Assembly: GCA_945861155.1 (NCBI GenBank)
Contig: CAMATN010000044.1
Location: 1-34,849 of the forward strand
Source: Rhizobium sp. Q54
Lineage (GTDB): Bacteria; Pseudomonadota; Alphaproteobacteria; ATCC43930; CGMCC-115725
Direction of reading: 5' to 3'
DNA length: 34,849 nt
In this document: positions 1,653 to 25,517 of the stretch, one piece after another
Position numbering within the stretch: the stretch's first letter is position 1
How the letters are laid out: each line of letters begins with the position of its first letter
Notes under the pieces: model-generated
What the model was told of the DNA's origin: nothing
The model's input: the letters and a program-made list of their open reading frames with translations, nothing else
Database searches by the model: none
Position numbers and translations under genes: made by a program

Positions 1653-2645
1653 GTGCGTTTCGGGCTTGCCTTGCCGAGTTATTCCTTCGCCGATCTCGAT
1701 TACGCCAAGGCGGCGCGGCTGCGCGATTTCGCGACGGAGGCCGAGGCGCGCGGCTATCAATCGCTGTGGGCGATCGAGCACCTGCTGACCGCGCGGGGCC
1801 TCTACGGCACGGCCTGGCTGTCGCCGCTCGAAACCTTGAGCTTCGCCGCCGGCGCTACAAGCCATATCACCCTCGCCACCGGCATCCTGATCGCGGCTTT
1901 GCGCAACCCTGTCTTCGTCGCGAAGGAGATCGCCAGCCTGCAATTCCTGTCGGGCGGCCGCTTCGAGCTCGGTATCGGGGTCGGCTGGGACGCGCATGAA
2001 TACGACGTCGCCGGCGTGCCCTTGCGGGAGCGCGGTCGGCGCACCGACGAGATCCTCGGCATCTTGGAGCGGCTATGGACCGGCAAGCCGGTCACCCATC
2101 GCGGTCGCTATTATCAGTTCGACGATGTCGTGATCGATCCGCCATTGCCGGCGAAGCCGCCGCTGTGGCTCGCCGGCGGGTCGAAGATGGTGACCGATTT
2201 GTCGCCCGACCCCGAGAATATGGCGCCGAGCGTGCTCGAACGCATCTGCCGACACGGCGACGGCTGGCTGGCGCGCGCCGCCGGGTCGACCGACAGCGTC
2301 ATCGCCGATTGGGCGCAAATCCAAGGGCGTCTCGCCGAACTCGGCCGGCCGCCGGGCAGCGTCGTCTTCGGCCACCTCAACTTCATGCACATCGTGCCGA
2401 CCGACGACGACGACACGGCGCTACGGGTACAGCGCCCGCTGATCGAACGGATCATGGGCACGCACCGCTCGTTCGATCATTTGCAGAGCTGCTACCTGCT
2501 CGGCAGCCCGCGCCGCATCCGGGAGCGCATTGCTGCGCTCGCCGATGCCGGGCTCGAATACCTCGTGCTCTCGCCGCTCGACTACGATTTCGGCCAGCTC
2601 GATCTGTGGGAGGAAGAGATCCTCCGCCACTTCCGCACGGCTTGA
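1653..2645 (+). CDS. LLM class flavin-dependent oxidoreductase
   Basis: This is a 330-residue luciferase-like monooxygenase/reductase. Features: the first strand VRFGLALPSYSF, AIEHLL near residue 40, the SGGRFELGIGVGWDAHEY block near residue 105, RGRRTDEILGI, and the C-terminal GSPRRIRERIAAL block that closes the barrel in this family. The GTG at 1653 is preferred over the ATG at 1599 because a GGGGAGGG ribosome site ends about 8 bases upstream. The gene converges on the substrate-binding protein gene, with 44 bp between stops. The cofactor may be F420 or FMN; the substrate is not assignable. Confidence 0.9.
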   Translation: MRFGLALPSYSFADLDYAKAARLRDFATEAEARGYQSLWAIEHLLTARGLYGTAWLSPLETLSFAAGATSHITLATGILIAALRNPVFVAKEIASLQFLSGGRFELGIGVGWDAHEYDVAGVPLRERGRRTDEILGILERLWTGKPVTHRGRYYQFDDVVIDPPLPAKPPLWLAGGSKMVTDLSPDPENMAPSVLERICRHGDGWLARAAGSTDSVIADWAQIQGRLAELGRPPGSVVFGHLNFMHIVPTDDDDTALRVQRPLIERIMGTHRSFDHLQSCYLLGSPRRIRERIAALADAGLEYLVLSPLDYDFGQLDLWEEEILRHFRTA

Positions 2646-2689
2646 CGCCCGGAAGTGGCGGGTAAACTCGGCTCAGCGGCGCGCCGACG

Positions 2690-4282
2690 CTATTTGTCGA
2701 GCCATACGTCCTCGAAGCGCCAGCCGTTGTAGATGCTGTTGACCATCAAGGTCACGCCCTTGACATGCGGATGCATGCAGGTCGCGTTGCGGGTGTGGAA
2801 GATGATCGGCCGCGCCCCGTCCTCCTGCAGCTTTTTGTCGATCTCCCAGACCAGTTTCTTGCGCTGTTCCTGATCGCTCATCACCGACTGCTCGGCAAAT
2901 TTCTGGTCGAGCTCGGGGTTGCAGTACGCGCTGTAGTTGCGGGCCGAACCGCAGGCGTAGTTCTCGAAGAACTGCTGGTCCGGATCGTCGACTCCGCTGC
3001 CGGTAGCGTTCATCGCAACGGTGTAATCCTTACGGGTTATCTTGGAGTGCCAGTTCGCGCTCTCGATGGTTTCGAGCACGGCCTCGACGTAAGCCTCCTT
3101 CAATTGGTCGATCAGGATGACCGCCGGATCGCGGAACGAGGCGACGTTGCGCGTCGAAACCGTCACTTGAAGTTTTTTGTCGGGCCCGTAGCCGAGCTTC
3201 TGCATGATGGCGCGCGCCGCGGTCCGGTTCTTCGCCACGTCTGGATCGAAGCCGGGAATGGCGCGCAGCATTTCCTCGGGCATGCCCCATTGCCCTTCGG
3301 GCGGCGGCAGCATCGCGGCGCCGATCTTGCCCTGTCCTTCGGTCATGATGTCGACGAAGGCCTTGCGGTCGATCGTCAGCGCCAGGGCCTTGCGCAGTTC
3401 GGGATTGTCGAACGGCGGCTTGTCGCGGTTGAGCAGCAGGTTGTTGGTGCCGTTTTGGGTTCGCATTTCGCAGATCGCGTTCGGCGCCTGGCTCTTGACA
3501 TCGCGCATCAACGGCGCGGTGGTCTGGTAGGGCCAGGTCATATCGAAATTTCCGGCGACAAACCCGAGGATCGCCGTCGAACGGTTCGGCACGATCTTGT
3601 ATTCGATCGCGTCGAGATAGGGGCGACCCTTCTTCCAGTAATCCGGGTTCTTGACGATTTTGATGTGTTCGTTCGGCTTGTATTCGACGAACTTGAACGG
3701 GCCGGTGCCGACCGGGTGCAGCCGCATCTGCGCCGGCGTCACATGGCAGGGGTAGATCGGCGAGTAGCCGGAGGCCAGCAGCGTCACCAGGGCCGGCTGC
3801 GGCCGCTTCAGGTGCAGGACCGCCTCGGAATCGCCTTTGGTCGTGACCTCGACCAAATTGTTGTACCACTCCTTGCGCGGGTTGCCGCGCAACCGATCCT
3901 TGGCCTTGCCTTGCAGGATCTCGAACGTGCACTTGACGTCGGCCGCGGTGAAGGGCTTCCCGTCATGCCACTTGACGCCCTGGCGCAGCTTGAAGGTGAG
4001 CTCCTTGCCGTCCTCGCTCCACGACCAGCTCTCGGCGAGATCCGGCACAATCCCGTCGAGGGTGTTCTGCTCCTTGTCCTGCCGGAAGAGGACCAGGTTG
4101 TTCATCACCCCCATGATCGGCACGACCGTCGAATAGGTCGCCTCCTCATGGATCGACATGCTGGCCGGGCTGTCCCAGTGTTGGATGGTAAGCGTCCCAC
4201 CGGACTTTTGCGCCCAGGCCGGACCGCCGACCGCGGCCGCGACGGCCGCGGCAGCAAGAAATAGGCGCACAGGTCTGATCAT
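2690..4282 (-). CDS. ABC transporter substrate-binding protein, dipeptide/oligopeptide type (SBP_bac_5)
   Basis: This 530-residue periplasmic binding protein belongs to the DppA/OppA cluster. It starts with a Sec signal peptide (MIRPVRLF, an Ala/Val-rich core, cleavage after AWA near residue 23). It then shows the family blocks: GTLTIQHWDSPAS, DLAESWSWSEDGKELTFKLR with VKWHDGKPFTAADV near residue 115, and HPVGTGPFKF in the middle. The ATG at 4282 has GGAGGA upstream. No permease or ATPase gene for it lies in the window, so it is an orphan binding protein here. It is divergent from eutB with a 281-bp gap. A role in delivering an amine, a peptide or a modified amino acid to that module is only a guess. 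Confidence 0.92.
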   Translation of the reverse strand: MIRPVRLFLAAAAVAAAVGGPAWAQKSGGTLTIQHWDSPASMSIHEEATYSTVVPIMGVMNNLVLFRQDKEQNTLDGIVPDLAESWSWSEDGKELTFKLRQGVKWHDGKPFTAADVKCTFEILQGKAKDRLRGNPRKEWYNNLVEVTTKGDSEAVLHLKRPQPALVTLLASGYSPIYPCHVTPAQMRLHPVGTGPFKFVEYKPNEHIKIVKNPDYWKKGRPYLDAIEYKIVPNRSTAILGFVAGNFDMTWPYQTTAPLMRDVKSQAPNAICEMRTQNGTNNLLLNRDKPPFDNPELRKALALTIDRKAFVDIMTEGQGKIGAAMLPPPEGQWGMPEEMLRAIPGFDPDVAKNRTAARAIMQKLGYGPDKKLQVTVSTRNVASFRDPAVILIDQLKEAYVEAVLETIESANWHSKITRKDYTVAMNATGSGVDDPDQQFFENYACGSARNYSAYCNPELDQKFAEQSVMSDQEQRKKLVWEIDKKLQEDGARPIIFHTRNATCMHPHVKGVTLMVNSIYNGWRFEDVWLDK

Positions 4283-4563
4283 ATGGAATTTCCTCCACGC
4301 TGTCGGACGTCGCTGTCGGGCGACGCGGCATACCGGGAACCGGGGCCTCTCGCCCGAGCGAGAGGAAAACGCCGCCCGCTTGCCGGCTTCCGCTCCGGCG
4401 CATCCCTTCGACAGGTCACGATAGCGCGTATCGTCGGTCCGGTGTGAGCATCTTGGTTGTGATATTGCAACGCCAGGAGCAGCGCGCCGACGCCCTTCCC
4501 CGCGACCGGATCGGGGCGGAAAGGGGCGCATCAAGCGGCCCTTTGATTCGGGAGACGATATCA
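4283..4563. promoter_or_regulatory. Divergent control region between SBP gene and eutB
   Basis: These 281 bp hold no convincing gene. They contain an 8-bp stem (CCTCTCGC at 4346-4353, GCGAGAGG at 4358-4365) in the leader of the SBP gene. For eutB there is a GGGAG ribosome site about 10 bases before the ATG. I looked for a cobalamin riboswitch, which would make sense for an adenosylcobalamin enzyme, and could not recognise a B12 box. No strong -35/-10 pair is evident. Confidence 0.4.
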
Positions 4564-5961
4564 ATGGCCCATACCGCGACGGTTGGCGGTACCCGCTATG
4601 TCTTTGCCGATCTTAAGGTTCTGCTTGCGAAAGCGACGCCGCACCGTGCCGGAGATGCGCTGGCCAACATTGCCGCGGCGGATGCAACCGAGCGAGTGGC
4701 GGCGCAGATGGCGCTGGCGGACCTGCCGCTGAGCCATTTTTTGAACGAGACCGTAATCCCCTTTGAGGACGACGAGGTAACCAGGCTCATTATCGATACG
4801 CACGACCGCGCGGCCTTCGCGGATGTTGCCTCGCTCGCGGTCGGCGAGTTCCGCGACTGGCTGCTTTCCGATCGCGTAAACGCGGACACGCTGACCCGGC
4901 TTGCGGCCGGGATTATCCCGGAAATGGCGGCGGCGACCTCAAAGCTGATGCGGTTGCAGGACCTTATTGCCGTTGCCGCGAAGTGCCGCGTGGTGACCCG
5001 GTTCCGCAACACGATCGGACTGCCCGGTCGATTGTCGACACGACTCCAGCCCAATCATCCGACCGATGACCTGCACGGCATCGCCGCGTCGATTCTTGAC
5101 GGTTTGATGCTTGGATCGGGCGATGCCGTGATCGGCATAAACCCGGCTACCGACAGCATGGAAAAATATATCGAGCTTACGCGGTTTCTCGACCTCATCA
5201 GGGAACAGCTGGATTTTCCGGGTCAATCCTGTGTCCTCGCGCATGTCACCACAGCGCTTGCGGCGATCGAGCGAGGCGCGCCAGTCGATCTTGTTTTCCA
5301 ATCGATCGCCGGCAGCGAGGCGGCAAACCGAAATTTCGGGATCGGTCTCAGCCTGCTTCGGGAAGCGCATCAGGCGGCGGTTGCGCTCGGTCGCGGGACC
5401 CTCGGGCGCAACGTTATGTATTTCGAGACTGGCCAGGGCAGCGCGCTTTCCGCCGACGCCCATCATGGCGTCGATCAGCAAACGCTCGAGGCGCGCGCCT
5501 ATGCGGTTGCCCGCGCCTTTGACCCCCTATTGGTCAATAGCGTGGTCGGATTCATCGGTCCCGAATATTTGTATAATGGCAAAGAAATAACGCGCGCCGG
5601 TCTGGAAGATCATTTTTGCGGAAAGCTGCTCGGTCTGCCGATGGGGGTTGATGTCTGTTACACCAACCACGCCGAGGCGGATCAGGATGACATGGACGGG
5701 CTGTTGACCTTGCTCGGGGTGGCCGGTTGTAACTACATCATGGGCGTGCCCGGCGCCGATGACGTGATGCTGAGCTACCAAAGCAGCTCCTTTCATGATG
5801 CCCTCTATCTTCGTTCGATTCTCAACAAGCGCCCGGCGCCTGAATTCGAGGCCTGGCTCGAACGGATGGGTTTGTCCGACGGCAACGGCACGATGCTCGG
5901 ATCCGACCACTCTCTTGAACTGCCCGCACTGATGCGCCCGGTTCTCGACGTGCTCGGATAG
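4564..5961 (+). CDS. eutB: Ethanolamine ammonia-lyase large (alpha) subunit EutB
   Basis: This 465-residue protein is the catalytic TIM-barrel subunit of the adenosylcobalamin-dependent lyase that turns ethanolamine into acetaldehyde and ammonia. The active-site block RLQPNHPTDD gives Arg160 and Gln162, and GINP gives Asn193, at the same numbers as in the E. coli enzyme. MYFETGQGSALSADAHHG supplies the Glu (288 here), and GVDVCYTNHAEADQDD supplies the Asp (363 here). Length and all key residues are intact. The ATG at 4564 follows a GGGAG site, and upstream in-frame codons have no homology. eutC starts 5 bp after the stop. No eutA reactivase and no microcompartment shell genes are nearby, pointing to the simple non-compartment type. 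Confidence 0.96.
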   Translation: MAHTATVGGTRYVFADLKVLLAKATPHRAGDALANIAAADATERVAAQMALADLPLSHFLNETVIPFEDDEVTRLIIDTHDRAAFADVASLAVGEFRDWLLSDRVNADTLTRLAAGIIPEMAAATSKLMRLQDLIAVAAKCRVVTRFRNTIGLPGRLSTRLQPNHPTDDLHGIAASILDGLMLGSGDAVIGINPATDSMEKYIELTRFLDLIREQLDFPGQSCVLAHVTTALAAIERGAPVDLVFQSIAGSEAANRNFGIGLSLLREAHQAAVALGRGTLGRNVMYFETGQGSALSADAHHGVDQQTLEARAYAVARAFDPLLVNSVVGFIGPEYLYNGKEITRAGLEDHFCGKLLGLPMGVDVCYTNHAEADQDDMDGLLTLLGVAGCNYIMGVPGADDVMLSYQSSSFHDALYLRSILNKRPAPEFEAWLERMGLSDGNGTMLGSDHSLELPALMRPVLDVLG

Positions 5962-5966
5962 AGGCG

Positions 5967-7814
5967 ATGAGCGATTCGGGGCCGCTCTCCTGGTCGAATT
6001 TGCCCTGGTCGAATTTGCGCCGGGCGACGCCGGCGCGGATTGGGCTCGGACGCACCGGATCGGCGCTCACGACGGCGGCCCACCTCGATTTTCAGCGGGC
6101 CCATGCCCGCGCGCGGGACGCTGTCCACGCTGCGCTCGATGTTCAACGCATCCTCGGCGATCTTGGCGAGATCGGCGTCGATGCCGTTCACCTGCGTTCG
6201 GCCGCGGGAGACCGCCCGACCTATCTGCGGCGCCCCGATCTGGGTCGGCGCCTCGATGGCGCGTCGCGGCGGTTGCTTCAGGAACGGCCCGCCGCTTTGC
6301 CGCAAATCGTGTTTGTCGTTGCGGACGGGCTTTCCGCCACCGCCGCCAATGCCCATGCCGTTGCATTGCTCAAAGCGATGTTGCCGGGTTTGGCTGAAGC
6401 ATCGTTGCGCGTCGGACCCGTCGCAATCGTCGAGGGCGGCCGTGTCGCGATCGGCGATGAAATAGGCGGTATGCTGGGGGCCGAGCTCGTCGCCGTGTTG
6501 ATCGGCGAGCGGCCGGGCCTCAGCGCCGCCGACTCGTTGGGGATCTATGTGACGTGGCAGCCTGCTCTGGGCGTCGTGGATGCCGCGCGCAACTGCTTAT
6601 CGAACATTCGCCCGAATGGAATGCCCATTCCCGAAGCGGCCGAGGCCCTGCGTCAACTGATCGCCGGCGCCCGTTATTACCGGATGACGGGGGTCGCGTT
6701 GAGCCAGCTTCTCGCGGACGATTCCGACGGTCGTTTTGCCGCGAGGTTGGGAATCGGGTTACCCTCCATGCCCGTATACTCGCAATCATCGCCGCTTGTC
6801 GCGGTGGGGCACCGGCCGCTAGACCGGGACGGGAAGGAGCCAGGCGTGCGCGTACGACGGATGGTCGACGGACCCATCATTTCGCCTGATCTGCATCCCA
6901 GCATCGGGGTCAACATCCAGGGCCCGTCGCTGATCAGGGTCCCCGACTGGATCGAGGGACGGCTTGGCGACTACTACCTTTATTTCGCCGATCATAAGGG
7001 ACGCTACATCAGGCTCGCCTACGCCGATCGCCTGACGGGACCCTGGACGATCCATCCGCCCGGCAGCTTGCAGCTCGAACAATCGGGTTTCCTGACCGAG
7101 CCGCCCGACGTCACGCCGGAGCAATTCGCGGAGCTTGAAGCTCGGTACAGGCAACGCGGCGCCGCGATGTCGCACGATCTGCTCCTGGAGGTCACGACGC
7201 CGCACATCGCCTCGCCCGATGTACATGTCGATCCGCAGGGGCGGCAGATCGTCATGTATTTCCACGGCCTCGACGATGTCGGGACACAGGTCACGCGCGT
7301 TGCCGCCTCACGCGACGGCATCGACTTCACCGCACATCAGGAAGTGCTGGGGCGCTCCTACATGCGCATCTTCGAGCACGGCGGAATGACCTACGCGCTG
7401 GCCATGCCTGGGGAGCTCTATCGGTCAACGGACGGTTTCCACGCGTTCGAGGCGGGACCAAGTTTATTCAACCCGAACATGCGCCATTCGGCCCTGTTGA
7501 AGCGTGGCAGCGTACTCTGGGTTTTCTGGACGCAAGTCGGTGAAACGCCCGAACGAATCCTGGCGAGCCGCATCGACCTGTCCGGCGACTGGCGGAGCTG
7601 GCAGGAAGACGCCGCAATCGAGGTCCTCCGCCCGGAACATGCATGGGAAGGGGCGGACGCACCGCTTGTACCATCGGTGCGCAGCACTGCCTACGGGCTG
7701 GTGAACCAGTTGCGCGACCCCGCCATCTTCGAAGAGAACGGCCGGACCTATTTGCTCTACGCGGTGGCCGGAGAAAGCGGGATCGCGATAGCCGATATCG
7801 TTTTCGACGATTAG
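5967..7814 (+). CDS. eutC: EutC light chain in one open frame with a GH43/32-like beta-propeller
   Basis: The ORF encodes 615 residues. Residues 1-250 are a complete ethanolamine ammonia-lyase small subunit: ARIGLGRTGSALTT near 23-36, HLDFQRAHARARDAVH near 39-54, IGERPGLSAADSLGIYVTW near 179-197 and RNCLSNIRPNG near 208-218. EutC normally ends shortly after this (250-295 residues). Here the frame continues without a stop through a low-similarity linker (about 251-293) into about 320 residues with beta-propeller features: GPIISPDLHPSIG, YYLYFADHKGRYIRLAYAD, HIASPDVHVD, and a DPAIFEENGRTYLLYAVAGE blade at the end. The second half resembles GH43/GH32-type five-bladed propellers; its substrate is unknown. 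Linker codons (TTA, AGG, CTA, TCA, GTA) differ from the neighbours, and a good ribosome site precedes an in-frame GTG at 6846. Two alternatives are therefore a true fusion, or separate translation of the propeller after loss of the eutC stop. Confidence 0.85.
   Translation: MSDSGPLSWSNLPWSNLRRATPARIGLGRTGSALTTAAHLDFQRAHARARDAVHAALDVQRILGDLGEIGVDAVHLRSAAGDRPTYLRRPDLGRRLDGASRRLLQERPAALPQIVFVVADGLSATAANAHAVALLKAMLPGLAEASLRVGPVAIVEGGRVAIGDEIGGMLGAELVAVLIGERPGLSAADSLGIYVTWQPALGVVDAARNCLSNIRPNGMPIPEAAEALRQLIAGARYYRMTGVALSQLLADDSDGRFAARLGIGLPSMPVYSQSSPLVAVGHRPLDRDGKEPGVRVRRMVDGPIISPDLHPSIGVNIQGPSLIRVPDWIEGRLGDYYLYFADHKGRYIRLAYADRLTGPWTIHPPGSLQLEQSGFLTEPPDVTPEQFAELEARYRQRGAAMSHDLLLEVTTPHIASPDVHVDPQGRQIVMYFHGLDDVGTQVTRVAASRDGIDFTAHQEVLGRSYMRIFEHGGMTYALAMPGELYRSTDGFHAFEAGPSLFNPNMRHSALLKRGSVLWVFWTQVGETPERILASRIDLSGDWRSWQEDAAIEVLRPEHAWEGADAPLVPSVRSTAYGLVNQLRDPAIFEENGRTYLLYAVAGESGIAIADIVFDD
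6831..6848 (+). promoter_or_regulatory. Internal ribosome binding site and GTG start for the beta-propeller half
   Basis: GGGAAGGAG (6831-6839) lies 6 bases before a GTG at 6846 that is in frame with the long ORF. Translation from there gives VRVRRMVDGPII, which is where the propeller homology begins (residue 294 of the long product). This would make a 322-residue stand-alone protein. Confidence 0.5.
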
Positions 7815-8199: not shown

Positions 8200-8276
8200 G
8201 GCCGGCCTCGTCGGTTTTGAGGAGGCCCCGAGCTTGACACGATGCCGCGGCGCCGACCAGCCCTTGAGCAAACAGA

Positions 8277-9839
8277 TTACGGCCGCATGCAGAAGCGGCG
8301 CTCGCCGGGTTCGCGCAGCTTGTCGGCCAGGCGGGAAAATTCGACCGCGAGCTTGCGGGTGTCGCGCGGGTCGATGATCTCCTCGACCCAGAACGTTTCG
8401 GCGGTGCGGAACGGCGAGCGCAATTTGCCGAGCCGCTCCTCGATCTCGGCGCGCTTGGCGGCGGGGTCGGGCGCGGCGTCGATCTCGGCGCGGTAGGCGG
8501 CCTCGATGCCGCCTTCCAATGGCAGCGATCCCCAGCGCGCCGACAGCCAGGCATAGCGGATCGAGAACCGCCCCGAAGGCTGGTTGACCGCGCCGGCGAC
8601 GCCGAACACGTTGCGCACCAGAAAGGTGCACCACGGCACGCTCGACTGGTTGACCGCGGCCATCGCCCGCACGCCCTTGCGAATCGTCGCGTGCTTCTCG
8701 GCCTCAAGCCCGATATCGAACCCAGGGCAATCGCACAGATAGACGATCGGCAGGTGGAAGGTCTCGGCGAGGTCGACGAACCGGATGATTTTGTCGCAAG
8801 CATCGGCGGTCCACGAGCCGCCGTAAAAGAACGGATCGCTCGCCATCACCGCCACCGGCAGCCCGTCGAGGCGGGCGAACCCGGTGATGATGCCGCGCCC
8901 GAACATGCGGCCCATCTCGAAAAAACTCCCCCGGTCGACGACGGCCTCGACGATCGGGCGCATCTTGTAGACCTTGCGGCGGTCGCGCGGGATCGCCTCG
9001 AACAGGAATTCGTCGCGCCGGTCGGGGTCGTCGGTCGGTTCGGCCCGCGGCGCGACCTCGTAGACCGACGAGGGCAGGTACGACAGAAAGCGGCGGGTGC
9101 AGGCGAATGCCTCAGCTTCGCTGTCGACCGCGTGATCGACCGCGCCGCAGCGCGTCTGGATCTCCCAACCGCCGAGCTCGAACCGGTCGAGCTGCTGCCG
9201 CCCAAGCGCGTTGACGACCGGTGGCCCGGCGACGAAAAGGGCCGAGGTTTCCATGGTCATCACCGAATAATGGCTCGCCGCGACCCGCGCCGCGCCGAGC
9301 CCGGCGACCGAGCCGAGCCCGAGCGCCACCACCGGCACCAGCCCCAGATTGGTCGTCGTGAAGTAATAGGGTAGGTTCGAGCCGACCCGTCCGGGCAGGT
9401 TGGCGCGCCCGGTCGTCTCGATCGTCTTGACCGAGCCGCCGCCGCCCGAGCCCTCGATGATGCGGATGATCGGGAGGCGCAGATCATGCGCCATCTGCTC
9501 GGCCATCAGCGGCTTTTCGCGGATCGTCGCGTCGGCCGAGCCGCCGCGAACCGTGAAATCGTCGCCGACCACGACGACCGGCCGGCCCTCGATCAAGGCG
9601 CGGCCCATCACGCAATTCGACGGCATCAGCTCGACGAGGCGGCCCTCGTCGTCATATTGCGCGCGGCCGGCGATCGCGCCGATTTCGTGAAAGCTGCCGG
9701 GATCGGCGAGCCCGTCGATCCGCTCGCGCACGGTGAGCCGGTTGCCCGCGTGCTGGCGCGCCACCTTGTCGGCGCCGCCGAGTTCCGCCGCGAAGCGCTC
9801 GCGCTCGCGCAGCTCATCCAGTTCCGGCTGCCATCCCAT
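8277..9839 (-). CDS. Acyl-CoA carboxylase carboxyltransferase (beta) subunit
   Basis: This 520-residue protein is of the propionyl-/methylcrotonyl-CoA carboxylase beta family, which moves the carboxyl group from carboxybiotin to an acyl-CoA. Both crotonase-like halves are present. The N-terminal half has LTVRERIDGLADPGSFHEIG, VVVGDDFTVRGGS and the GSGGGGSVKT oxyanion loop. The C-terminal half has GFARLDGLPVAVMASDP, YLCDCPGFDIG and NVFGVAGA. ATG 9839 follows GGAG by 7 bases; an ATG at 9872 has no ribosome site. No biotin carboxylase/BCCP alpha subunit is adjacent, so the partner must be encoded elsewhere, and the acyl-CoA specificity is open. Confidence 0.92.
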   Translation of the reverse strand: MGWQPELDELRERERFAAELGGADKVARQHAGNRLTVRERIDGLADPGSFHEIGAIAGRAQYDDEGRLVELMPSNCVMGRALIEGRPVVVVGDDFTVRGGSADATIREKPLMAEQMAHDLRLPIIRIIEGSGGGGSVKTIETTGRANLPGRVGSNLPYYFTTTNLGLVPVVALGLGSVAGLGAARVAASHYSVMTMETSALFVAGPPVVNALGRQQLDRFELGGWEIQTRCGAVDHAVDSEAEAFACTRRFLSYLPSSVYEVAPRAEPTDDPDRRDEFLFEAIPRDRRKVYKMRPIVEAVVDRGSFFEMGRMFGRGIITGFARLDGLPVAVMASDPFFYGGSWTADACDKIIRFVDLAETFHLPIVYLCDCPGFDIGLEAEKHATIRKGVRAMAAVNQSSVPWCTFLVRNVFGVAGAVNQPSGRFSIRYAWLSARWGSLPLEGGIEAAYRAEIDAAPDPAAKRAEIEERLGKLRSPFRTAETFWVEEIIDPRDTRKLAVEFSRLADKLREPGERRFCMRP

Positions 9840-18906: not shown

Positions 18907-20358
18907 CTACAGGTCATGCCCCGAATAGGAGCAGTTGAAGGATTTGTTGCACAGCGGAAAATCGGCGACGATGTTGCCCTCGATCACCGCTTCGAGCAGC
19001 GGCCACTGAAACCAGGACGGATCGCGCAGCCGACAATGTTCGATGCGGCCATCGGCATTGACCCTTACCCAGCAGAACACATCGCCGCGGAAGCCTTCGA
19101 CGAGCGCGAAGCCCTCGCCCACCGTGTTGGGCTCCAGCAATGTCCGCGTCGCGCCGGATGGGAGCCGATCGAACAGCTGTGCGAGAAGCGCGAGGCTCTG
19201 TTCGACCTCGCGAATGCGGATCCATATTCGGGCGTTGACGTCGCCCTCCGGCAATGACGGGATTGCGAAGGACAGCGTGTCGTAAGGCGGGTAGCCCGGA
19301 ATCTTGCGTGCGTCGAAATCGCGGCCCGAGGCGCGCCCGACATAGCCGCCGGCGGCGAACCGGCGCGCCAGTTCGGCCGTCAGGATGCCGGTACCGACCG
19401 TGCGGTCCTGCAATGTGCTGGTGTCCTCGAACAGGCTCACCAACGGCGCGAACTCGCGGCCGGTCGCGCCGGCCAGGGCGCGCAGCCCGGCCTCTCCGGC
19501 CGCGTCGAGATCGCCTGCGACACCGCCCGGCACGACGCGGTCCATCATCAGCCGGTGGCCGAACGCGGCCGCCGCCGCGCGCAACACCCGTTCGCGCAGC
19601 ACGCCGCAATGCGCGTGCATCAACGCGAAGGCGGCGTCGTTGCAGACCGCGCCGATATCGCCGAGATGGTTGGCGATGCGCTCCAGTTCGGCCATCACCG
19701 CGCGCAGCCATACCGCGCGTTCCGGGACCCTGACGCCGAGCGCCGCCTCGACCGCGCGGGCGAAGGCGATCGCGTAGGCGACCGTGCTGTCGCCGGAGGT
19801 GCGGCCGGCAAGCCGTGCCGCGGTGTCGATCGGAGCGCCGCGCATCAGGCCTTCGATGCCCTTGTGGACATAGTCGAGCCGTTCTTCGAGGCGGACGACG
19901 GTCTCGCCGCTGCAGGTGAAGCGGAAATGCCCCGGCTCGATGATGCCGGCATGGACCGGCCCGACCGGGATTTGATGCAGGCTCTCGCCCTCGACCGGCA
20001 GAAAGCGGTAGGCGCCGCCGGTTGCGTCATGCGGCCGGGGAGCACCGAGCGGCTGCCGTACCGGCCAGCGCCCGTGGTCAAGCCAGCTTCGGTCATCCGG
20101 CGCGCCGAGCGGTTCGAGGCCATAAAGCTCGCCAATCGCGCGTTCGAGGCGGATCGCCGGCGCATGGTGCCGGCCCAAGGAGGGAAATTTGCCGTCCGGG
20201 CAGGCCAGCGCGGCGATCTCGATCCGGCCCCGATCGGCGTCGAGGACGGCCATCCGAACGGACCCGGCATCGCCCCACAGATCGACCAGGCTCCGCCGGC
20301 CGGCCACAAGATCCTGCGCGAGACGCTCCCACCCGGCGGCGTCAACGAAATCAGCCAT
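18907..20358 (-). CDS. NuoCD/HyfG-like large subunit lacking Ni-Fe ligands
   Basis: This 483-residue protein joins a NuoC-like N-terminal part (about 1-105) to a NuoD/NiFe-hydrogenase-like large subunit (about 115-483). Family landmarks are IPVGPVHAGIIEPGHFRF, RLDYVHKGIEGLM, VPERAVWLRAVMAELERIANHL and DFPLCNKSFNCSYSGHDL at the end. Where hydrogenases carry CGIC there is AGRT (residues 184-187), and the C-terminal CxxC becomes SYSG (residues 477-480). All four Ni-Fe ligands are therefore gone. The protein cannot be a hydrogenase and probably serves as a quinone- or ferredoxin-linked coupling subunit. The start lies 2 bp after the stop of hyfF. Confidence 0.9.
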   Translation of the reverse strand: MADFVDAAGWERLAQDLVAGRRSLVDLWGDAGSVRMAVLDADRGRIEIAALACPDGKFPSLGRHHAPAIRLERAIGELYGLEPLGAPDDRSWLDHGRWPVRQPLGAPRPHDATGGAYRFLPVEGESLHQIPVGPVHAGIIEPGHFRFTCSGETVVRLEERLDYVHKGIEGLMRGAPIDTAARLAGRTSGDSTVAYAIAFARAVEAALGVRVPERAVWLRAVMAELERIANHLGDIGAVCNDAAFALMHAHCGVLRERVLRAAAAAFGHRLMMDRVVPGGVAGDLDAAGEAGLRALAGATGREFAPLVSLFEDTSTLQDRTVGTGILTAELARRFAAGGYVGRASGRDFDARKIPGYPPYDTLSFAIPSLPEGDVNARIWIRIREVEQSLALLAQLFDRLPSGATRTLLEPNTVGEGFALVEGFRGDVFCWVRVNADGRIEHCRLRDPSWFQWPLLEAVIEGNIVADFPLCNKSFNCSYSGHDL

Positions 20359-20360
20359 GA

Positions 20361-21809
20361 CTATCCGAGCAGCCCGGCGACATGCTCGAACCAGGCGACC
20401 ATCGGTCGCGGCAGATAGATGCCCGCGACCAGCACCAGCGCCATGTGCGCGAACAACGGGACATAGGACGCATGAACCGGGACGGACGGGCCCTCCGGCT
20501 CGCCGAACGCGATCTCGCCGAGGCGCAGGATCAACGCGCCGAGCGCGATCAAGAGGCCGCCGACCAGCGGCACGGCAAGCCAGGGCTCACGCGCGAACGT
20601 CGTGCTGATGATCAGGAACTCGCTCATGAACAGGCCGAGCGGCGGCAAGCCGGCAATCGCCACGACGCCAAGCACCAGCCCCCAGCCGAGCACCGGATGC
20701 GTCACCGTGAGGCCGCGGATTTCGGCGATGCGCTGGGTGCCCTTGGCCTGCGCGACGTGTCCGACCGCGAAGAAGATCGCCGACTTCGTCAGGCTGTGCA
20801 TCGTCATGTGCAAGAGGCCGCCGAAATTCGCGAGCGGGCCGCCGAGGCCGAACGCGAACGTCGCAATGCCCATGTGCTCGATCGAGGAATAGGCGAACAG
20901 GCGTTTGATGTCGCGCCGGCGGTACAGCATGAAGGCGGCGAACACCAGCGACGACAACCCCATCGTGATCATCAGGGTGCCGGGCGCCCAGGCGTTCTGG
21001 TTGGCGGCGACCAGCATCTTGAAGCGCAGGATCGCGTACAGCGCCACATTGAGCAGGAGGCCGGACAGCACCGCCGAGATCGGGGTCGGGCCTTCGGCAT
21101 GCGCGTCGGGCAGCCAGGCGTGCACCGGGGTCAAGCCCGCCTTGGTGCCGTAGCCGAGCAGCAGGAACACGAAGGCGAGGTTGAGCAGTCTCGGATCGAA
21201 ATTTTGGGCTCGCGTGATCAGGACGGTCCACGCCATCGCGTCGAGCCCCTCGCCGATCACCGGCCGCGCCGCCACGTAGATCAGGATCGTGCCGAACAGC
21301 GCCAGCGCGATGCCGACGCTGCCGAGAATGAAGTATTTCCAGGCGGCTTCGAGGGCCTGCTCGGTCGCGTAGATCCCGACCAGCATGATCGTCGTCAGGG
21401 TCGCAAGCTCGACCGCCACCCACATCAGCCCGATATTGTTGGCGACCAGCGCCAGGTTCATCGTGCACAGCAGCGCCTGGAACATCGCGTGATAGAAGCG
21501 CAGCAGGCGCGGCGTCAGGCGGTCGGTCTCGACCTCGTGGGCGATATAGCTCGCGCTGAACACCGCCGTCGTGAAGCCGATGAAATTGTTGAGCGCGATG
21601 AAGACGATGTTCAGCTCATCGACGAGCAGCAGTTGGCCGGTGCTCGGGCCGGTCGCAAACAGCGACAATGCCGCGAGCAGCGCCAGCAACGATGCCGCGA
21701 TGTTGATGCGCGCCCCGAGCCGGTAGCTCGGCACCAGCATCAGTACGCCGGCCGCGACGAGCGGGATCAGCAGCACCGGCGCGATCGGATCGAGCAGCGA
21801 CGCGATCAT
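20361..21809 (-). CDS. hyfF: HyfF-like antiporter-type membrane subunit
   Basis: This is a 482-residue, about 14-helix membrane protein of the NuoN/NuoM/MrpD family. The proton-channel residues are visible: Glu in MWVAVELATLTTIM, Lys in GYGTKAGLTPVHAWLPDAH, and the SHxT-like segment MTMHSLTKSAIFF. It should carry protons or sodium ions across the inner membrane as part of the complex. The ATG at 21809 overlaps the TGA of hyfE (ATGA), which indicates translational coupling. Assignment to HyfF rather than NuoN rests on operon order and the neighbouring HyfE. Confidence 0.9.
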   Translation of the reverse strand: MIASLLDPIAPVLLIPLVAAGVLMLVPSYRLGARINIAASLLALLAALSLFATGPSTGQLLLVDELNIVFIALNNFIGFTTAVFSASYIAHEVETDRLTPRLLRFYHAMFQALLCTMNLALVANNIGLMWVAVELATLTTIMLVGIYATEQALEAAWKYFILGSVGIALALFGTILIYVAARPVIGEGLDAMAWTVLITRAQNFDPRLLNLAFVFLLLGYGTKAGLTPVHAWLPDAHAEGPTPISAVLSGLLLNVALYAILRFKMLVAANQNAWAPGTLMITMGLSSLVFAAFMLYRRRDIKRLFAYSSIEHMGIATFAFGLGGPLANFGGLLHMTMHSLTKSAIFFAVGHVAQAKGTQRIAEIRGLTVTHPVLGWGLVLGVVAIAGLPPLGLFMSEFLIISTTFAREPWLAVPLVGGLLIALGALILRLGEIAFGEPEGPSVPVHASYVPLFAHMALVLVAGIYLPRPMVAWFEHVAGLLG

Positions 21810-22474
21810 GTGCGCTCTCCGCTGAACCGGTCGAGCGCCTGCATGTCGACCGTGTCGAAGCGCTCGCGGATGCGGAACAGGAAGATGCCGATCACGATCA
21901 GCGCCACCAGCACCGAGAACGCGACGCTGATCTCGACGACGAGCGGCATCCCCCGTGCCCCGGTCGCCGCCAGGATCAGCCCGTTCTCGATCGACATGAA
22001 GGCGATGACCTGGCTGATCGCGTTGCGCCGCGTCACCATCGTCAAAAGGCCCAGCAGGATCACGGCGAGCGCAAAGGCGAGGTCCTCGCGCGCCAGCGTG
22101 TCGGCGGTTTCGGTCACCCGCAGCATCAGCACGATCGACAGCGCGACCAGACCCATCCCGGCCAGCATCGTCGGCCCGATCCCGACCACGGTCTCGACTT
22201 CGCGGTGGATCCCCAGCCGCTTGACCATCTGGTAGAGCGCCCCCGGGATGATGAGGACCTTCAGCACCACGGCGATCCCGGCAGTGATGTAGAGGTGCGG
22301 CGCTCCCTGGATGTCGGCCTGCCAGGCAACCGCGACCGAGAGGAGCAGCGAATGCAGCGCGAATACTTTAAGCAAAGCGAAAATGCGGTTCTGGTAGAGC
22401 AACAGGAAGCTCGCCAGCACCAGCCCGCCGGCCAGCATGTGCGCGATATCGAGCTGCAGGTTGGGAGCGGCCAT
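21806..22474 (-). CDS. hyfE: HyfE-like membrane subunit
   Basis: This is a 222-residue hydrophobic protein with about seven helices, matching hydrogenase-4 component E. That family combines a NuoK-like core (the SIENGLILAATGARGMPL motif with its buried Glu) with extra N-terminal helices. The ATG at 22474 shares a base with the TGA of hyfC (TGATG), and its own stop overlaps hyfF. A longer frame to 23236 exists, but its first 250 residues are the antisense-like shadow of hyfC. It is a likely ion-path subunit linking the HyfC-like and antiporter-like proteins. Confidence 0.9.
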   Translation of the reverse strand: MAAPNLQLDIAHMLAGGLVLASFLLLYQNRIFALLKVFALHSLLLSVAVAWQADIQGAPHLYITAGIAVVLKVLIIPGALYQMVKRLGIHREVETVVGIGPTMLAGMGLVALSIVLMLRVTETADTLAREDLAFALAVILLGLLTMVTRRNAISQVIAFMSIENGLILAATGARGMPLVVEISVAFSVLVALIVIGIFLFRIRERFDTVDMQALDRFSGERT

Positions 22475-23436
22475 CACCGGACCCGGGTCACGAACATCAG
22501 CAACGTGCCGAGCAGCGCCAGCATCAGCGCCGCCCCGAGGAAGACCGGGACGCGAAAGACGCGCATCTTGGCAATGCTGGTCTCGAACAATGCGAGCAGA
22601 AAGCCGGCGACCGCGAGTTTGCCGACATAGGCGCCGAGACCGATGCCGAGCGCCGCCGGCGCGGCGTCGGGGCGGGCCAGCCCCCACGGCGCGAAGACGC
22701 AGGCGATGACCGACACGTAAAGCAGCAGCTTCAGGAATGCGGCGAGTTCGATCAGCGCCAAATGGCGTCCCGAATATTCGAGCACCATCGCCTCGTGCAC
22801 CATCGTCAGCTCGAGATGCGTCGCCGGGTTGTCGACCGGGATGCGGCCGTTCTCGGCGATCGCGACGATGATCAGCGCGACCAGCGCGAGGAGGAGCGAC
22901 ACCCTGAGCCCGACCGCTCCGCTCTCCATCACGCCGGCAATGGTCGACAATTGCGTCGAGCCGGCGATCAACGCCAAGGTGAACACGACGATGATCAGCG
23001 CCGGCTCGGCGAGCGAGGCGATCATCACTTCGCGGCTCGACCCGATCCCGCCAAAGCTGGTCCCGACGTCGAGCCCCGCCAAAGCGAGAAAGAAGCGGGC
23101 GCTGCCGAGCAGGCCCGCGATCACGATCAGGTCGGCCGACCAGCTGAAGGTCAGGCCGAGGCCGAAGGTCGGCACCAGGGCCGCCGCCACCCAGGTCGCC
23201 GCGAAGATCAGATACGGTGCGACGCGGAATACCCACGAGGCGCTGTCGGCCAGCACGACCTCCTTGCGCAGCAGGCGCAGGAGGTCGCGGTAAGGCTGCA
23301 ACACCGGCGGCCCCTGCCGGCGCAGCAGCCGCGCCTTGACCTTGCGGACGAAGCCGGTCAACAGCGGCGCGAGCAGCAGCACGACCAGCATCTGGCCGCC
23401 CTGGATGGCGAGGTTGACGGCGACATCCCAGGTCAC
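22474..23436 (-). CDS. hyfC: HyfC/NuoH-like membrane subunit
   Basis: This 320-residue protein with about eight helices belongs to the NuoH/HycD/HyfC family, which anchors the hydrophilic arm to the membrane. The conserved blocks are seen: RRQGPPVLQPYRDLLRLLRK near residue 35, and ENGRIPVDNPATHLELTMVHE near residue 195 with the charged residues of the quinone/ion entry region. The start is GTG 23436, whose GTGA overlaps the stop of hyfB. Upstream frame to 23583 lies inside hyfB and has no homology. Confidence 0.92.
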   Translation of the reverse strand: MTWDVAVNLAIQGGQMLVVLLLAPLLTGFVRKVKARLLRRQGPPVLQPYRDLLRLLRKEVVLADSASWVFRVAPYLIFAATWVAAALVPTFGLGLTFSWSADLIVIAGLLGSARFFLALAGLDVGTSFGGIGSSREVMIASLAEPALIIVVFTLALIAGSTQLSTIAGVMESGAVGLRVSLLLALVALIIVAIAENGRIPVDNPATHLELTMVHEAMVLEYSGRHLALIELAAFLKLLLYVSVIACVFAPWGLARPDAAPAALGIGLGAYVGKLAVAGFLLALFETSIAKMRVFRVPVFLGAALMLALLGTLLMFVTRVR

Positions 23437-25442
23437 GGCGCCACCGCCAGCGCCACGAGCAGCCCGACCAAGCTGACGAATACCAGCGCGAGATACCGCT
23501 GGATCGTCAGGAACTGCACGAAATTGAGCCGGGTCGCGATGGCACCGACCGCATCCGAGATAGGCACGTACACCAATTCCCAAATCAGATCGCGCAGCTG
23601 GACCTCAAACCGCGCCGGCCGCATGTCGCCGGGCGCCGGCATGTCGACGCTCTCGCGCGCCCGAAACACCAGCGTGCCGAATACGCGACGGATCGGCTGG
23701 GCGAAGCTGCCGGCGGTGTACTCGGTCGCCGGGCTCGCATCGGGAAAGCCGCAATCCCACGCCGGGCCGCGGCGCACCGCGCGCGAGGCCCAGCGATGCA
23801 CGGCGACTGCCGACAGCCAGGCCGCAACCGCGATGAACAGGAACACGAGCAGCCCGTTATAGGAGCTGCGCGACTCCTCGACCGGCACGATCGACAGCCA
23901 TTGAATGCCGGCCTGCGCCGGCATATGGCCGCCGACCAGCGGCTGCGCGACCGGAGCCAGGGCGTCGATCACGAAACCCGGCAGGATGCCGCACAGCACG
24001 CAGAGCCCGACAAGGGCCAGCATCGCGGCGAGCGAGAAGCGATCTGCTTCGCGCGCCCTTCCGGCCGCGCCGGAACGTCCGCGGCCGAGGAAGGTGACCC
24101 CGAACGCCTTGACGAAACACGCCGCGGCGAGCGCTGCCGACAACGCCAGCATCGCGCCGATCGCCGGCACCATCAGCTTCAGCCCCCATTGCGGCAATGC
24201 CGGGCTCAACAGGATCGCCTGGAAGATCAGCCACTCCGAGACGAAGCCGTTGAGCGGCGGCAGGGCCGAGATCGCCAGCGAGCCGGCGAGGAATGCGAAA
24301 GCGGTCAGCGGCATCGCGCCGATCAGGCCGCCGAGGCGCTCCATGTCGCGCTCGCCGGTCGCGCTCAGCACCGCGCCGGAGCCGAAGAACAGCAGGCTCT
24401 TGAACAGCATGTGGTTCAGCACGTGAAACAGCGCGCCGGTCAGGGCCAAGGCGGCGGCGGCCGGCATCGCATTGGCCTTGAAGGCGAGCGCGAGCCCGAG
24501 CCCGGCGAAGATGATCCCGATATTCTCGACCGTGTGGTAGGCAAGCAGCCGCTTCAGATCGTGCTGCATCAGCGCGTACAGCACGCCCAGCACGGCGGTG
24601 ATGCCGCCGAGCGCCAGCACGACCATGCTCCACCACCAGTCCGGCGGCCCGAGCAGGTCGAACACGATGCGCACAAAACCGTACACCGCGACCTTGGTCA
24701 TGACGCCGCTCATCAGCGCCGAGACATGGCTCGGCGCCGCCGGATGGGCGAGCGGCAGCCAGACGTGGAGCGGCACCAAGCCGGCCTTCGACCCGGCCCC
24801 GAGCAGCGCAAGCCCGAGTACCGCGCCCGCAACCAGCGCTCCCGGCGCGCTGACGCGCATCATCCCGAACTCGTAGGTGCCGGCATGGCCGGCCAGCAGC
24901 CCGAACGCCAGCACCAGCATCAGCGTGCCGAAGCCCGCCATCATCAGATACACGTAGCCGGCGCGGACATTGCCGGCGGCCCGATGGTGCGCCAGGACGA
25001 GCGCCCAGGAGGCGAGCGACATCAACTCCCAGGCGAACAGGAACGTGAACGCGTCGGCCGCCAGCACGACCAGGTTCATGCCGGCGAGAAACAGCGGATA
25101 GAACGGCAGGACCCGTTCCGGCGCTTCCTCGTGACGGCCATCGCCGAGCCCGAACAGGCTCGCCGCGCCAGCGCCGAGGTTGACCACGACCAGAAACGCG
25201 GCGGACAAAGCGTCGATCCGGAAATGCGCGCCGATCCACGGCAGGCCGAGCGGCAGCACCAACTCGTGCGACGGCCCGACCGCCGCTATCAGGTCGTAAG
25301 CGGCGACCAGGCAAAGGATCGCGCTCAAGGCAGCGCTCGCGCCGTACACCACCGGTCGGCCACCGGCATGCCGCGCCAACGCCAGACCCAGGATACCGAG
25401 CACCAGAAAACCGGCGACGCCCGCCAGGAACAGCGCCGGCAT
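23433..25442 (-). CDS. hyfB: HyfB-like antiporter-type membrane subunit
   Basis: This is a roughly 669-residue membrane protein of the NuoL/HyfB family. Signature segments: FLFAWELMSLASWALV with the channel Glu, AGSKAGLVPLHVWLPLAHPAAPSHVS with the Lys and HP-rich loop, HTVENIGIIFAG, LNHMLFKSLLFFGSG, and the C-terminal HyfB-specific WDCGFPDASPATEYTAGSF region before the last helix. I start at ATG 25442. A GTG at 25502 would add 20 basic residues and is possible, since neither start has a strong ribosome site. It is the first structural gene of the operon and would form an ion-translocating half-channel. Confidence 0.9.
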   Translation of the reverse strand: MPALFLAGVAGFLVLGILGLALARHAGGRPVVYGASAALSAILCLVAAYDLIAAVGPSHELVLPLGLPWIGAHFRIDALSAAFLVVVNLGAGAASLFGLGDGRHEEAPERVLPFYPLFLAGMNLVVLAADAFTFLFAWELMSLASWALVLAHHRAAGNVRAGYVYLMMAGFGTLMLVLAFGLLAGHAGTYEFGMMRVSAPGALVAGAVLGLALLGAGSKAGLVPLHVWLPLAHPAAPSHVSALMSGVMTKVAVYGFVRIVFDLLGPPDWWWSMVVLALGGITAVLGVLYALMQHDLKRLLAYHTVENIGIIFAGLGLALAFKANAMPAAAALALTGALFHVLNHMLFKSLLFFGSGAVLSATGERDMERLGGLIGAMPLTAFAFLAGSLAISALPPLNGFVSEWLIFQAILLSPALPQWGLKLMVPAIGAMLALSAALAAACFVKAFGVTFLGRGRSGAAGRAREADRFSLAAMLALVGLCVLCGILPGFVIDALAPVAQPLVGGHMPAQAGIQWLSIVPVEESRSSYNGLLVFLFIAVAAWLSAVAVHRWASRAVRRGPAWDCGFPDASPATEYTAGSFAQPIRRVFGTLVFRARESVDMPAPGDMRPARFEVQLRDLIWELVYVPISDAVGAIATRLNFVQFLTIQRYLALVFVSLVGLLVALAVAP

Positions 25443-25517
25443 CGCTACCCGCACGAGCGCCAGGCTGCGGGCGGACGGGCTCGTCCGGCCGGCGCGGCGC
25501 ACTCCGCCACTGTCACG

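Follow-up and report, generated by a model that had tools for sequence, protein, structure and literature searches.

The 34,849-nucleotide stretch analyzed here (the window) carries a single open reading frame of 615 codons on the forward strand (5967–7814; ATG start, TAG stop), which a sequence-only reading had described as a EutC light chain continuing through a linker into a β-propeller. The ORF call, Pfam and NCBIfam searches, and an AlphaFold model confirmed both the frame and its 2 domains. The preceding gene on the same strand, eutB (4444–5961), encodes the large subunit of ethanolamine ammonia-lyase and is intact, as had been claimed (PF06751 over residues 52–484, E = 4.3e-211; NCBIfam PRK15067 over its cut-off), although its true start may lie inside the ORF. 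Residues 1–250 of the long frame (5967–6716) form a complete EutC light-chain domain with coding-like codon usage, in which PF05985 spans residues 13–245 (E = 2.6e-85; 285.9 bits against a cut-off of 25.8) and NCBIfam PRK05465 scores 292 bits (cut-off, 230); solved light chains, when compared with it, likewise indicate a complete domain. The frame then reads through a 43-codon linker (6717–6845) into a propeller gene encoding 322 amino acids (6846–7814), which has its own GTG start and a TAG stop and is preceded by a ribosome-binding site. Elsewhere in the window, the reverse strand encodes a family 5 solute-binding protein (2690–4564) that has an exceptionally large set of paralogs, with 43 matches in its own genome and 44 in genome G003, and a run of genes (18907–25502) for a 49-kDa NADH dehydrogenase/hydrogenase-like subunit and Mrp/NADH-quinone antiporter-like subunits, putatively a complex I-like or hydrogenase-4-like cluster.

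The propeller (residues 294–615) is a self-contained unit. The AlphaFold model of positions 6846–7811, with 26 relatives in the alignment, reached a pLDDT of 95 and a pTM of 0.93 and is complete from the residue encoded by GTG 6846 onward. Among solved structures, GH130 mannoside phosphorylases and enzymes of the GH43 type have the most similar folds (Foldseek E about 1e-9), the best match being to GH130 (VIA Z 26.0, 259 residues at 2.8 Å), with GH43 folds at Z 22–24. The earlier description of the propeller as glycosidase-like is thus right for the fold, and for the fold only. No Pfam family scored over its cut-off across the 322 residues (GH43 gave 15.7 bits, below the cut-off of 32.2), and GH130 sequence matches were obtained for only 3 of 27 members of the propeller family (best E = 0.01). 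The alignment of the window propeller with 26 other loci delineates a family that is spread over many phyla, retains highly conserved His, Arg, and Glu residues, and is not covered by any dedicated Pfam model above cut-off. A scan of genome contigs recovered 38 propeller loci across many phyla, and a plasmid search added one distant propeller, 40% identical, from Natrononativus. The nearest relative (G035), from the same family as the window genome, is 77% identical and encoded by a standalone gene located behind a thiolase gene.

Standalone relatives also indicate where the propeller gene begins. Three of them (L014, L016, and L017) have an ATG precisely where the window has GTG 6846 and an in-frame stop 5 to 22 codons upstream, so that these genes must begin at or near the equivalent position; 2 others (L033 and L045) likewise have an ATG there. 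Several other propellers carry a putative signal peptide, judged by eye, before this position, and those of the window and of G035 lack one. The ribosome site of GTG 6846, which had been called excellent, is indeed strong: GGAAGGAG (6832–6839), 6 nt upstream of the GTG, pairs with the anti-Shine–Dalgarno sequence at −8.0 kcal/mol, and an equally good site is found at about 3% of 125 ATG/GTG positions inside 5 genes of the window. The corresponding GTG of G035 also has a strong ribosome site. Neither eutB nor eutC was found at any of 40 propeller loci, and no neighboring gene recurred at these loci outside Mesorhizobium, with the flanks of some loci being short. Taken together, the homologous starts, the ribosome sites, and the absence of eut genes from the 40 loci argue that the propeller is encoded by an independent gene, placed behind eutC and equipped with its own start, from which a free propeller could be translated at GTG 6846.

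The ends of EutC could be placed for 71 other copies (33 distinct and 38 further ones) from family, class, and phylum samples, and all 71 stop 5 to 37 residues after the equivalent of residue 250, compared with 365 residues in the window. A eutC gene was found in 2 congeners (G005 and G006), and in both its stop falls at the equivalent of residue 262, which corresponds to a GGA codon in the window (6750–6752); the EutC tails there end 11 residues past residue 250. The observation that the sequence-only reading had named as refuting its proposal, a eutC stop between the 2 parts in related genomes, was thus made only halfway: the congeners have the stop, but no propeller lies behind it. Instead, in G006 the eutC stop and the ATG that opens an acyl-CoA ligase gene overlap (TAATG), and in G005 the match to this ligase starts directly after the eutC stop. 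The ligase has orthologs of 88% identity in G005 and 83% in G002, whereas nothing in the genome of the window matches it at more than 34% identity, and no ortholog was found in this 226-contig draft, in which a gap is possible; the gene was thus either lost from the genome or is absent from the draft. When an empty site was sought from the downstream side, a carboxyltransferase gene proved to be conserved in the congeners, but the match stops at its end, at window positions 8276–8303, short of showing the exact breakpoint. A second case of the EutC–propeller join was found neither in the samples drawn from family, class, and phylum nor at the 40 propeller loci, and an established or recurrent architecture was accordingly rejected. 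Titles and abstracts of publications on fusions of EutC or on fusions by stop loss contained nothing relevant.

The linker differs in character from the domains that it connects. With codon scores derived from the other genes of the window, the EutC part and the propeller score +0.28 and +0.27 bits per codon, respectively, whereas the linker scores −0.28 bits per codon in frame and is negative in all 6 frames, in line with the earlier remark that its codons are unusual. Searches of 39 genomes of the family returned short, weak matches only, so that an origin of the linker from other DNA of the family was also rejected. Because of its noncoding scores in 6 frames and these weak matches, the linker looks like former spacer DNA, although its opening codons may stem from the former end of EutC. 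Scanning the junction for a promoter, a terminator, or a repeat revealed nothing above expectation. An open frame through such a sequence is not improbable: for a linker of this composition, the computed probability of a stop-free stretch is about 0.35–0.41 for all 43 codons and 0.45–0.51 for the last 32 or 33, and with the one-in-three chance of the right frame, an open linker would follow roughly 0.12–0.17 of stop losses, or about 1 case in 7. The continuous frame is therefore in itself no evidence of selection. Ten of the 43 linker codons, including those at 6747, 6750, and 6759 near the position of the congener stop, are a single substitution away from a stop codon, which is compatible with a point mutation without being specific to it.

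We consider it probable that the long frame arose in this genome alone through the chance fusion of 2 ordinary genes, by a rearrangement downstream of eutC combined with loss of the eutC stop. The ancestral state would have comprised 2 unrelated genes, eutC and a standalone form of the GH43/GH130-fold propeller without a signal peptide. A rearrangement may then have removed the acyl-CoA ligase gene and brought the propeller, together with its upstream spacer, behind eutC, with the eutC stop disappearing either at the breakpoint itself or through a point mutation. With no in-frame stop in the spacer, translation from the eutC ATG would yield a 66.7-kDa EutC–linker–propeller chain, and initiation at GTG 6846, with the ribosome site that the propeller gene retains, could still produce a free 36.0-kDa propeller; we infer that both products are synthesized and that the extension of EutC has no selected function. 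This history largely coincides with the second of 2 alternatives offered by the sequence-only reading, namely, that the eutC stop was lost and the propeller start was kept at GTG 6846, and the congener stops, the ATGs of the standalone relatives, and the ribosome site all speak for it. The accompanying suggestion that only a fraction of EutC is extended does not hold: since no stop lies between the parts, every ribosome starting at the eutC ATG reads on, and starts at 6846 contribute nothing but additional free propeller. Provided that the sequence is correct, the propeller would be present on every EutC chain.

The sequence itself could be at fault, in that a eutC stop separates the parts in the real genome or that the contig is misjoined, with 2 separate proteins being made. 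The join is present in one assembly only, a draft of 226 contigs, and with 10 linker codons one substitution from a stop, a local sequence error could conceal one. Both flanks nevertheless belong to the right lineage (eutC is 66% identical to that of a congener, the carboxyltransferase 81% to 83% to those of congeners, and the propeller 77% to one from the same family), which makes a join between organisms unlikely. Moreover, after a single indel before 6820 the frame would either hit the TAG at 6820 or enter the propeller, and a stop near residue 262 would therefore not be restored. Overall, we regard an artefact as unlikely, yet deserving of serious consideration.

A far slighter chance is given to the first alternative of the sequence-only reading, a new architecture that ties the lyase to another activity or a scaffold, the propeller having been selected for sugar binding, hydrolysis, or scaffolding. 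Both domains are complete and coding-like, and the frame is open across the junction; however, the join is found in no other genome examined, among relatives of either EutC or the propeller, the linker is spacer-like and without coding character, the propeller retains its own start signals, and chance could plausibly leave the linker open and in frame. A full-length structure model was uninformative on the placement of the propeller, its EutC half, with no relatives in the alignment, reaching a pLDDT of about 25–50. The fusion protein may be made and tolerated, and could even be useful, but a recently formed, functional fusion, with the propeller carried by the ethanolamine ammonia-lyase complex and extra free propeller supplied from the internal GTG, strikes us as very improbable. 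The accidental fusion remains our preferred reading, and the frame looks like a commonplace gene fusion private to this lineage, or like an artefact of the sequence, rather than a new kind of protein. If real, it offers a snapshot of the first step of a gene fusion, in which loss of a stop joins neighbors through a noncoding spacer and the second gene retains its own start after joining. More generally, a "new domain architecture" seen in a single genome needs both relatives and reads before it is believed; about ethanolamine catabolism, nothing new is learned.

Compared with known systems, the EutC part is conventional: residues 13–245 match the whole model of the family represented by PDB entries 3any, 5ysn, and 3abo (chain B), the light chain of ethanolamine ammonia-lyase, and eutB lies directly upstream. 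What sets it apart from the 71 other copies is the length of sequence beyond residue 250. The propeller shares its fold with GH130 mannoside phosphorylases (e.g., PDB 9fj8) and GH43 glycosidases over about 240–260 residues (Z 22–26), at a sequence identity of 10% to 17%. A partial parallel is provided by locus L167 (G585:C6) from the same class, in which a EutB match (1732–3012) and a EutC match (3082–3819) occupy one frame without a stop between them, a natural EutB–EutC fusion; its EutC is divergent, with 30% identity to that of the window. As in the window, a eut gene is joined to its neighbor through a missing stop, whereas in L167 the joined partners are 2 subunits of the same enzyme and the junction is on the N-terminal side of EutC.
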